Below the pieces are notes generated by a model. The model was not told where the DNA came from. It did not search any database and worked only from the letters and a program-made list of their open reading frames with translations. Shown piece by piece: positions 3,023-54,044 of a stretch of 64,000 bases of DNA. The translations under genes and the position numbers were made by a program. Location of the stretch: positions 372,001-436,000 of the forward strand of contig NZ_NSKC01000001.1 of the NCBI RefSeq assembly GCF_002286985.1, written 5' to 3'. How positions within the stretch are numbered: the stretch's first letter is position 1; each line of letters starts with the position of its first letter. This stretch comes from Halorubrum salipaludis. GTDB lineage: Archaea; Halobacteriota; Halobacteria; Halobacteriales; Haloferacaceae.

Positions 3023-6000
3023 GTGCGAGACCGGTCGCCGACCGGAGCCGCGCCAGACTGCGGATCGCGGTGTCGATCCTTCACCGTCGACGAGCGCGCT
3101 CGGGTCCCGTTCGCGCTGATCGGCGTGCTCCTGCTGGTGACGAGTTCGACGTACGCCGCGGGGATCGCCGATCAGGGGCTCGTCGGCGAAGACCGGAGCG
3201 TGGAGCGCGCCGTCGAGCGGGTTGACGCCGATTCGACCGCCGCGCTCAGGGCCGCGGCGCGTCGGGCGGCGCACGACGCCGCCGCGGAGCCGGTGACGCG
3301 GGCACCGACCGAGACGGCCAGCGATCCGGGAGGCGGACACGCCGCGACCGCGGTCAGAGACGAGTCCGCCTTCGAAGACGCGTTCCGGATCCGACTCGCC
3401 ATCGCCGGCGCCGAAGCGCTGTCGGCCGTCGACGCCGATGTCGGCGGCGTGACGGCGACGGCGTCGCTCCCGGCGGTGGACGACCCGAGCGAGCTGGCGG
3501 CGGCGCGCGACCGGGTCCGCGTCGAGCCCGCCGCGAACGGAACGGCGACGCGCGTGACGTTCGAGGGGGTGGACACGACCGCGACGCGGAACGGACGCAC
3601 GGTCGTGGAGCGAACGGAGGACCGGACGGTGGTGGTGGCCGTGCCGACGCTCGCGGCGCACGAGCGGACGGAGCGGTTCGAGGACCGGCTCGGTCGGGGA
3701 CCGACCGAGGGACCGGGGCTGGGCCGCCAGCTCACCGCGAGCCTCTACCCGATGACGTGGGCACGGGGGTACGCCCAGTACGCCGGCGCACCGGTCGAGA
3801 ACGTCCTCGCGAACCGCCACGTGGAGCTGTCGACCAACGCGGGGATCGTCCGGACGCAGCGGGACGTGTTCGGCGCGAGCGACCCGAACGCGCGCGGCGG
3901 AGTGGCACGCGCGACGGCGCAGACCGGAGCCACGGACCTGCTCGAACCGACCGGTGTCGACGAGGGGTCGTGGACGAAGGCCGTGCTCGACGCGCCGACG
4001 CCGGGGGAGGCGGACGGCCCGGACGAAAGGGATGGTCCGGACGAAAGAGATAGTCCGGACGAAGGAAACGGTCCGGGCGGCCGAGCGAGCGAGGACGCCG
4101 CGTTCCGAGACGAGGGCCCGACGGAGGAGCAAACGCCGGTCCCGATCGGCCGTGCGGCCGACGAGGGAGCGACGCGCGTCTACGACGATCTGGACGCGAT
4201 CCTCGAGGACGCGTACCGAGTCGAGGCGAGCGTCGAGACCTCGACGACGCGGATCCACGACGGCGGGCGCCCGACGCCCCCGACGCCCGCTCCTTCGGAG
4301 TTCACCACCACCGGCGACTGGGAGCGCGTCGACCTGACGCGGACGGAGCGGTCACCGGTCGTCAGCGGGTCCGGCGTGCCTGAGGGCGTTCCGTCCGGGA
4401 CGGTCGATCCCGGTGAGCGCGTCTCGTTCGGCGGCGCGACACGCGAGGCGACCGTCGAGCGCGTCGCGGTCGCGGAGTGGGAGCGGGTGTTCGTCGAGCG
4501 GGGGCCGAACGGGAGCGTCGTCGACGAACGGGTCCTCCGGACGACCACGCGCGACGCGGTGACCGACCGCTACCGGGTGCGGCTGTCGGTGTCGGGGGAG
4601 CACGCGCCGACCGACGAGGCGCCCGACCGAGCCGCCGCGACGTTCGGCGCGGGCGACGCGGCCGACGGCCCCGACCTGCGCGACGCGCCGCCGGCCGCTC
4701 GGAGCGATCTGGGCGTCGACACCGAGGGCGGCGTCGACCGGATCGCCGCGGACGCGGTCGGCGGCGGCGACGTTCGCGAGTCGACGACCGTCGTGGGGTC
4801 CCGCTCGTCCGGCGATCGAGACGCCGTCGCGGCCGACGTGGCCGCGCTCGCGAGCGACGTGCGCGACATCGAGACCGAGGCGTCGATGGAGGATGCCGCA
4901 GTCGGCGAGGCGGAACCGTACGTCGACCTCGCGGACGCGATCCGCGATCGGCGCGCGGAACTCGTCGACGCACCGCGGACGTACGACGGTGCCGTCGATC
5001 GGGCCGGCACCGCCGCCCGTGCCGCGTACCTCGACGCCGTGATCGACGAACTCGAAGGGGCCGCAGACGACCGTGAGCGCGCGACCGACGGATTCCTCGA
5101 CCGCGTGAACGGCGCGTTCGATGGGCCAGACGTGGGCGACGCGCTCGCCAGTCGCGAGGCCGCTCGCGACTCCGGGACGTACGCGGTCGGCGAGGACGGC
5201 CCCGGCGGCGAAGTGACGTTCGCGCCGAACGGCTCCCCGGGGTACCTCCCGCGGACGACCGTCGACGGCGAGACCGTCGACGGGGTGGACGGAACGACGA
5301 CCCGCCCGCTCGCGGTCCGGAACGTGAACTACGTCACCGTGCCGTACGGCGAGGTGTCCAGCGGCGTCGTCGATCGGATCCTCGGCACCGAAGACACGGT
5401 GCGGGTCGGCACCGCCGGTCGGTCGCTCCTGGTGGCGAACGACGCGCTGGGGGCCGGCGACGATCCGGACCTGCGGGCGGACCGAGACGCGCTCGCCCGA
5501 CAGGTGAGTGGATCGCTGGACGAGGTCGACCGGGAGCTCCGATCGACGCTCCGCGTCCGGACTTCGCTGTCGCGCGACGAGCGACGCAGGGCGCTCGACG
5601 AGGCCGCCGCGAGCTACGGCTCGACCGGCGAACGCGCGGTCGCCGTCGGGAACGGGTCCTATCCCGATCGAGTCGCCGCCGAGGCCGCGGCCGTCGGGTC
5701 GCTGTCGCGGGCGACCGAGGAGGCGCTCGCCGCGAACCTGCGCGTCGCGACCCGGTCGGCGGCCGGGCGGGACGCGGTACGGGTTCCGACCCGGTTCGTC
5801 GACGAGACGACGAGCGGCGCGCGAGTGCTGCTCAGAGACCGGATGGAGAAGGCGATCGAGAGGGAGGCGGCGCGGGCGGGCGAGAAGGCCGCCGGGAGAG
5901 CGAGCGAGAAGGCGGTCGAGGAGCTGGGCGAGAAGTGGTCGCTGAAGCCCGCCCGAACGGTCGGCGCGGGGCTCCCGGTCGCGCCCGTGCCGGGGTACTG

Positions 6001-26812: not shown

Positions 26813-27182
26813 TTTATAAATGATCTGCGGTGGCGCGCGCCCGTGAGCGGGCCTTCGGCCCGCGAGCGGCGACGCGCGAGGGAGTCGGTCGTCCGGAGCA
26901 ACGCGGAGGGCGACCGACGAGGCTGGGGAGGCGTGAGGTGTGGTGCGGTGCCGTGCGGGTGGGTGGGACCCAAAGGGGCAGCCGGCGAGGCGGGCACAGG
27001 CGACGCAAGCACTGGAAGGAGCGCACCGCGAGCGACTGAAGCGCGTGGTTCGAGAGAGCGAAGCTCTCTCGTCATCACGAAAGGGGCGGAGCGCCTTTCG
27101 AACGACAGCGAGCGTGTGCCCGCCTCGCCGGCTGGGGCTTTGGAAGTGGTCACCGCTGATCTGTCAGAAATGCTTATAAGTG
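26813..27182. repeat. Structured dispersed repeat, copy A (candidate non-coding RNA)
   Basis: The whole gap between the prf1 start and the argS stop is one structured element. It is bounded by TTTATAAA (26813-26820) and CTTATAAG (27173-27180). Inside are hairpins at about 26827-26880, a long stem 26884-26917, the motif GAGGCTGGGGAGGCGTGAGG (26919-26938), and a long-range stem with 29-nt arms at 26970-26998 and 27115-27143 (CCAAAG/CTTTGG, a G-rich 4x4 internal loop, then 19 perfect pairs). Between the arms lie AAGGAGCGCACCGCGAGCGA and two local hairpins (about 27050-27070 and 27078-27101). Short reading frames here are not credible genes. Confidence 0.8.
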
Positions 27183-53644: not shown

Positions 53645-54044
53645 TTACTTAAAAGGGTCATGCGGTGGCGCGTGCCTCCGAGCGCCCTGATAAGGGCGCG
53701 AGGAGCACGCGCGAGGTCGCCGGCGCTACGCGCCGGCTGCCAGAGGGACCTTCGGTCCCTCGCTGGACGCGGTGAGCGCTCGCAGAGCGCGAACCGCGAG
53801 GCTGGGGAGGCGTGAGGCTGGGTGGTTGCGGGGTGGGACTCAAAGGGGCAGTCGCGAAGCGGGCGCAGACGACGGAAGTAGCGAGGGACCGAAGGTCCCT
53901 CTGACAGCCGGCGGCTTCGCCGCCGGCAAGACCGCAAGGAGCGAGCACCGCGAGCGACTGAGGACCGCACCGAGTGTGCGCCCGCTTCGCGACTGGGGCT
54001 TTGGAGGCGTTCGTCGACGATCCGCGATCGACTATTTATAAGCG
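53645..54044. repeat. Structured dispersed repeat, copy B (candidate non-coding RNA)
   Basis: The element is bounded by ACTTAAAAG (53647-53655) and TTTATAAG (54034-54041). It holds, in order, a long hairpin 53665-53712, two cassette hairpins (53719-53737 and 53743-53761), a stem 53768-53798, GAGGCTGGGGAGGCGTGAGG (53798-53817), the long-range stem arms 53841-53867 and 53977-54003 with CAAAG/CTTTG and a G-rich internal loop, and between the arms two more cassette hairpins (53883-53901, 53907-53927) and AAGGAGCGAGCACCGCGAGC. Shared core and spacing with copy A identify it. Confidence 0.8.

Follow-up and report, generated by a model that had tools for sequence, protein, structure and literature searches.

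In integrons, attC sites consist of two short helices around an unpaired spacer and a variable terminal stem, and one folded DNA strand is recognised with little constraint on its sequence. REPs are 21-65 nt long, have GTAG or GTGG 0-2 nt 5' of a hairpin (PMC6006769), and are read as single-stranded DNA (ssDNA) by an HUH enzyme (PMC6006769, PMC3116915). Among the haloarchaea, Haloquadratum walsbyi contains palindrome-associated transposable elements (PATEs), the palindromes of which resemble the ends of IS605-type transposons (PMC3119063). In the mitochondrial RHEs of sponges, the stems are mostly conserved and the loops vary (PMC2800124).

The locus analysed here carries a multicopy element with very strong paired changes, found in roughly three of every four haloarchaeal genomes searched, for which I found neither an Rfam entry nor a description in the literature searched. 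Like REPs, BIMEs and REPINs with their RAYT (TnpA-REP), it is intergenic, high-copy, folded and vertically persistent (PMC6006769, PMC3116915), and inverted doublets occur as well, in the form of head-to-head pairs of its stem-loop unit, P3. However, the foot of P3 is preceded by ACT or variants thereof, with GTGG 4 nt away, the unit measures 115-130 nt, and PF01797 (TnpA-REP) is absent from four element-rich genomes (G001, G019, G028 and G044, with 45-88 exact feet each). With the PATEs it shares the character of a transposase-free, high-copy haloarchaeal repeat that has near-terminal palindromes, is without inverted terminal repeats, and is prone to repeat-mediated deletion of its core and to insertion of other small elements. 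It differs in being an order-wide unit with one covarying stem-loop, whereas PATEs are a set of families described in one species, and in showing no relation to IS605-type ends: none of 42 IS200/IS605 tnpA/tnpB loci in Halorubrum species had an end of the element. As PF01797 does not track the element either, a derivation from IS200/IS605 ends was rejected. Mitochondrial RHEs and DHEs are likewise putatively mobile GC-rich hairpins that occur between genes, in tandem and as double hairpins (PMC2800124), but in the present element it is the stems that vary, by paired changes, and the loops and linkers that are conserved. The resemblance to attC concerns the layout only, and no cassette array was seen at the element. 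The best reading is that of an interspersed REP/PATE-like element kept as a folded ssDNA substrate; that it is a haloarchaea-wide family of non-autonomous intergenic repeats, the selected form of which is the plus strand folded as ssDNA, I judge to be about evenly balanced.

The window, i.e. the whole 64-kb stretch of DNA that was analysed, is haloarchaeal and contains two copies. Copy A sits between an eRF1-family release factor gene and an arginyl-tRNA synthetase gene, and copy B adjoins a heavy-metal P-type ATPase gene. Each has three hairpin regions, P1 to P3, and the bit scores below come from two covariance models for P3, R1 and R2.

26814..26819, no strand: copy A, left boundary motif TTATAA, inside TTTTATAA (window sequence; limit of conservation in the family)
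26829..26835, plus strand: copy A, GGTGGCG block, where the structured part begins (92-99% conserved per position in 214 copies)
26833..26877, plus strand: copy A, P1 hairpin; like the family at large, it has the tandem G.A/A.G mismatch (123 distinct P1 hairpins counted)
26884..26918, plus strand: copy A, P2 hairpin, a variable module swapped wholesale between orthologues (orthologous locus in other species)
26919..26938, plus strand: copy A, conserved linker GAGGCTGGGGAGGCGTGAGG (exact 13-mer counts genome-wide: 115, reversed control 2)
26961..27146, plus strand: copy A, P3 unit with GGGTGGG, CAAAG/CTTTG, GGG/GGG loop, variable stem and apical domain (R1 73.5 bits, R2 63.8 bits)
26971..26981, plus strand: copy A, foot of the P3 5' arm, CAAAGGGGCAG (exact counts genome-wide, pairing)
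27045..27106, plus strand: copy A, foreign module of two hairpins inside the P3 loop (blastn)
27132..27143, plus strand: copy A, foot of the P3 3' arm, CTGGGGCTTTGG (exact counts)
27174..27179, no strand: copy A, right boundary motif TTATAA (window sequence; copy survey)
53649..53654, no strand: copy B, left boundary, a degenerate TTAAAA (window sequence)
53668..53712, plus strand: copy B, P1 hairpin (sequence; P1 pairing counts)
53713..53797, plus strand: copy B, P2 region of several hairpin modules (window sequence)
53798..53810, plus strand: copy B, conserved linker GAGGCTGGGGAGG (exact counts)
53831..54007, plus strand: copy B, P3 unit (R1 79.6 bits, R2 67.3 bits)
54036..54041, no strand: copy B, right boundary motif TTATAA (window sequence; copy survey)

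A sequence-only reading of the window had proposed one long-range stem in each copy, and the arms do pair in this way (26971-26998 with 27115-27142 in copy A, 53841-53867 with 53977-54003 in copy B). The paired changes that it had named between the copies, C-G to T-A, G-C to A-T and A-T to G-C, as well as the one G-C pair missing from both arms, are present in the sequence. Its conserved G-rich internal loop also stands, though as a symmetric GGG/GGG between CAAAG/CTTTG and CAG/CTG and not as GGGC opposite GGGG, and the TATA-like boxes that it had placed at both ends are there but vary between copies. The repeat is far more than a pair of copies: the genome contains about 110, A and B among them, and the family is found throughout the haloarchaea. 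The 11-mer foot CAAAGGGGCAG occurs exactly 109 times in the genome against 4 times for its reversed control, the linker GAGGCTGGGGAGG 115 times against 2, and the 3' foot CTGGGGCTTTGG 121 times against once. Among the 100 foot matches listed, the only contigs are C1, C8, C9, C12, C21-C23, C26 and C27; C3 (at least 111 kb) and C4 (at least 69 kb) have no foot among them, and plasmid-like contigs may thus lack the element.

From 80 stretches of the genome, 87 copies were obtained. On the plus strand, the order is TTTATAA, about 10 nt, GGTGGCG, P1, GAGGGA, P2, GAGGCTGGGGAGGYRTGAGG, a G-rich stretch, P3, about 29-32 nt and TTATAA. Of the 111 copies with a left TTATAA, 87 have the box 15-17 nt before GGTGGCG, and exact TTATAA is absent from this position in 103 of 214 copies; the right one follows CTTTG after 29 or 32 nt in most copies that have it. 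P1 is a hairpin of 8 bp, a bulge, 3 bp, a tandem G.A/A.G mismatch and an inner stem, and over 123 distinct P1 hairpins its helix shows 93% Watson-Crick pairs and the tandem G.A is found in about 90%. P3 begins with GGGNGGGACT (more generally GGGNGGG), followed by the 5-bp basal helix CAAAG/CTTTG, the symmetric GGG/GGG loop, the variable stem and an apical domain in which 2-bp helices alternate with tandem G.A mismatches (GA/GA) up to a GNA loop at the tip. The three positions of the GGG/GGG loop are G.G in 86/86, 84/86 and 86/86 copies of the genome. In a minimal P3 of 33 bp (CAAAGGGGCAGCCGCCTCGCGGCTGGGGCTTTG, at position 4694 of the reversed locus L016) the inner stem and loop are lost and GGG/GGG is kept. 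L021, L032 and L065 stand apart from all the rest in that the interior of their P3 loop is flipped, as though the two arms had recombined. P3 loops sometimes hold nested hairpin modules (GTGGTTCGAGA..TCTCGTCATC..GACATCACGA..), namely at 27045-27106 of the window and at L011, L025, L029, L036 and L044; the one in copy A is 80-95% identical by blastn to plasmids of Natrarchaeobaculum, Natrinema, Natribaculum, Haladaptatus and others. The modules match repeats on plasmids of Natrinema, Natribaculum, Haladaptatus and others, and look like an independent family of palindromic repeats.

In order to measure the covariation, an alignment of 61 diverse copies (arm identity below 90%) was folded, which gave 31 pairs, 20 of them with changes on both sides. 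Paired cells make up 98.4% as compared to 83.2% after shuffling, and both-side changes amount to 246 cells against 64.4 in the shuffled and 4-43 in the slid controls, counts in which related copies are not pooled. The covariation score amounts to 0.428 against 0.144 (shuffled) and 0.018-0.075 (slid; the structure was derived from the same alignment, which favours it over these controls), and none of 500 shuffles reached it. Across genera, which share this bias to a lesser degree, 461 such changes stand against 141.5. The basal helix varies there, to GAAAG/CTTTC or GGAAG/CTTCC (basal pair G-C in 33, C-G in 23), so that a helix invariant within the genome covaries between genera. The alignment of many copies, proposed as a check by the sequence-only reading, thus bears out its suggestion that structure and not sequence is under selection. 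A folded DNA strand would give the same conserved, covarying secondary structure as an RNA, and covariation, usually taken as proof of RNA, may here report selection on folded DNA.

The wobble pairs are strongly one-sided, and the plus strand is therefore the folded one: G.T exceeds A.C by 58:20 in P3, 38:6 in outer P1, 58:11 across genera, and 17:0 in a set made up mostly of distant families. At single sites, T.G is common and C.A rare (19:0 at columns 50/100 of alignment A3, 28:2 at P3 pair 11). Mutation bias as the source of this asymmetry is not supported at unpaired sites, where C>T amounts to 2.8% and G>A to 4.1%, without an excess of C-to-T. With DNA parameters, the plus strand is also the better-folding one in 109 of 117 units, and with RNA parameters in 113. 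Because this strand is folded, the promoter and start proposed earlier for the minus strand are disfavoured.

Which molecule is folded may be read from the loops. Three-nucleotide loops occur in 114 of 201 distinct element hairpins, 109 of the 114 being closed by C-G and 62 being GNA or TNC, whereas control hairpins have no preferred loop length, no preferred closure (CG 59, GC 65) and GNA/TNC in 29 of 137. At the tip of P3, GNA accounts for 34 of the 44 triloops in the first set, for 28 of the 31 tips in the cross-genus set and for 17 of 19 in the last, and all 14 apical loops of 4 nt are GNNA, at most about four of which fit the GNRA rule of RNA. RNA equivalents of GNA/GNNA DNA mini-hairpins are less stable. 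As DNA, GNA and GNNA loops on G-C stems form exceptionally stable mini-hairpins (PMC4686876). In these statistics, drawn from partly related hairpins, the apical loops fit the rule for DNA mini-hairpins (GNA/GNNA, closed by C-G) better than the GNRA rule of RNA. With its loop rules and wobble asymmetry, the family is a natural data set for telling folded DNA from RNA.

The main rival to the ssDNA reading, which I hold to be unlikely, is a structured RNA, with P3 or P1-P2-P3 acting in read-through transcripts or as a multicopy family of non-coding RNAs. All the wobble ratios given above, including those at single sites, agree with it, as G.T tolerance is predicted equally by RNA folding, a point against the ssDNA reading; so do the internal-loop sequences conserved across the order and the TATA-like boxes at both ends in Halorubrum. 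However, the loops follow the DNA rule, G.T makes up only about 2% of the P3 pairs, and the element is absent from many complete genomes. In archaea, transcription usually starts about 25-27 nt downstream of the centre of the TATA box. The left TTATAA starts 16 nt before GGTGGCG, and with this spacing the transcript would begin inside P1 and cut off its 5' arm, for which reason an RNA with its own promoter was rejected; in other families, a TATA box was not evident upstream of stand-alone P3 units either (a dozen loci, by eye). A non-coding RNA with its own promoter is thus unlikely, and of the earlier proposal of a non-coding RNA or RNA-like element, the selection on structure is supported and the transcript from its own promoter, against which the TATA spacing argues, is not. 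Between tandem genes, as assigned by a simple gene caller, the element lies sense in 32 cases and antisense in 36, and this random orientation argues against structured RNA in general and led me to reject a sense-oriented 3'-UTR element in particular.

The distribution was examined by an exact 12-mer search first, and then with R1 and R2. The 12-mer search suggested a family restricted to Halorubrum, and contig matches to the element are all from Halorubrum or uncultured relatives, but the covariance models show that only the basal pair is specific to the genus. R1 finds P3 in 111 of 148 genomes of the taxonomic family, with at least 89, 59, 46 and 33 matches in single genomes of other genera. 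With R2, matches come from 287 of 392 haloarchaeal genomes, which represent 74 of 95 genera (E <= 1e-6, these E-values being rough), reach up to 140 bits outside the family and are absent from 105 of the 392 genomes of the order; because no more than 8 candidates were scored per genome, the copy numbers are minimum values. R2 is specific, in that copies B and A score 67 and 64 bits in the 64-kb window and the next match 15, and the weakest structured match in 184 kb of Halorubrum scores 42 bits and the best of the rest 17. P1, P2 and the G-rich linker precede P3 in Halorubrum and some other genera; elsewhere P3 occurs alone or in inverted pairs, and head-to-head doublets about 20-30 nt apart, found in several families, are not the rule in Halorubrum. 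P3 is also present on plasmids of Halobaculum, Halorussus, Haloarcula, Natrinema, Halobacterium and others, and among the annotated plasmid records listed, no feature is annotated at P3. Rfam (4227 families) gave no match in the 64-kb window or in 7 loci of other genera, the best sub-threshold matches lying far below the gathering scores, in line with the earlier suggestion of an undescribed element. A viral or phage element was rejected, as viral contigs and phage records gave no match.

Sequences such as AAGCAC and GCRCAGCGAG recur in all genera, and as such conservation would not be required of a purely selfish repeat, it counts against the main reading. It is a tentative possibility that the family represents an archaeal system of great age, spread over the whole order, in which a conserved enzyme would read one strand of the scattered intergenic sites as folded ssDNA, as an independently arisen counterpart of REP/RAYT or attC that uses the rules of DNA mini-hairpins (GNA) and G tracts. 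In the favoured reading, a putative protein would recognise the folded plus strand when it is exposed, e.g. on the lagging-strand template, and might occasionally copy or move the element, with slow spread. If it exists, such a reader protein would represent a new system of ssDNA recognition in Archaea.

Among the nearest Halorubrum species examined, most have the element at the locus of copy A, where its linkers are conserved but its hairpins entirely different; the remaining species have no element or remnants of it. Twelve further loci are mostly occupied in the 6 relatives examined, with several exceptions. The persistence of the element at its sites while the stems turn over suggests gene conversion or module exchange together with selection for pairing, and gene conversion among copies may swap whole hairpins. 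As element loci are conserved across several species, turnover of the element itself is slow. A MITE-like element with inverted repeats encloses about 40 copies; the other copies lack these repeats, and in them conservation begins at TTTATAA and is absent outside. The inverted repeats (TTGATCGATRGCGGGAGTGAG..) were seen at L012, L014, L022, L030, L033, L047, L055, L244 and others, and some MITE-like copies (L030, L075) extend outward to GGCTCTGTTGAA-like ends, reminiscent of IS6-family termini. One MITE-like copy, L244, exists without the element, and thus the MITE is the host and not the element. It has one TTATAAA where filled ones have two, and likewise an empty orthologous site has one and the filled site two (L334 and L020, respectively). 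These empty sites fit insertion at TTATAA and loss by recombination between direct repeats equally well. For a target-site duplication of the MITE, no consistent register or longer duplication was found. An autonomous version with an open reading frame was rejected: only in L069 are linker and P3 far apart (750 bp), and this copy seems to harbour an IS insertion.

In the Halorubrum genome, 45 of 85 copies lie between convergent genes and 12 between divergent genes (simple gene caller), which fits avoidance of promoters. As the family fills more than 100 intergenic sites in a genome like this, it is relevant to haloarchaeal annotation. The four G3 tracts, formed by GGGNGGG and the GGG/GGG loop, are almost invariant in 56 units of several genera and could form a quadruplex in the potassium-rich cytoplasm. 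Both observations would suit a DNA element at the level of the chromosome, i.e. a hairpin or G-quadruplex for nucleoid organisation, replication pausing or intergenic termination of transcription. I consider this quite improbable, as the element is missing from about a quarter of the genomes and convergent and divergent locations are equal in other genera (12:11). Very doubtful, and already weakened, is the reading that the fold is not selected at all and that template switching or snap-back synthesis with gene conversion keeps the arms complementary, with covariation as a mutational by-product: the wholesale replacement of hairpin modules at orthologous loci, the tight C-G-closed triloops that fit snap-back turns and the inverted P3 interiors of L021, L032 and L065 agree with it, but if the arms corrected each other, mismatches ought to disappear, whereas nearly all copies keep GGG/GGG, about 90% of P1 hairpins keep the tandem G.A and the asymmetric apical loop persists across the order; nor does this reading predict a strand-specific wobble tolerance.

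Two further repeat arrangements were observed. The reversed control 12-mer GACGGGGAAACT occurs 32 times in the Halorubrum genome G017 and thus points to another repeat family there. The 3' tail of the present element is found in tandem arrays, with units of about 55-75 bp that contain CGGCTGGGGCTTTGG and TTTATAA, at L013, L015, L017, L021, L028, L034 and L067.
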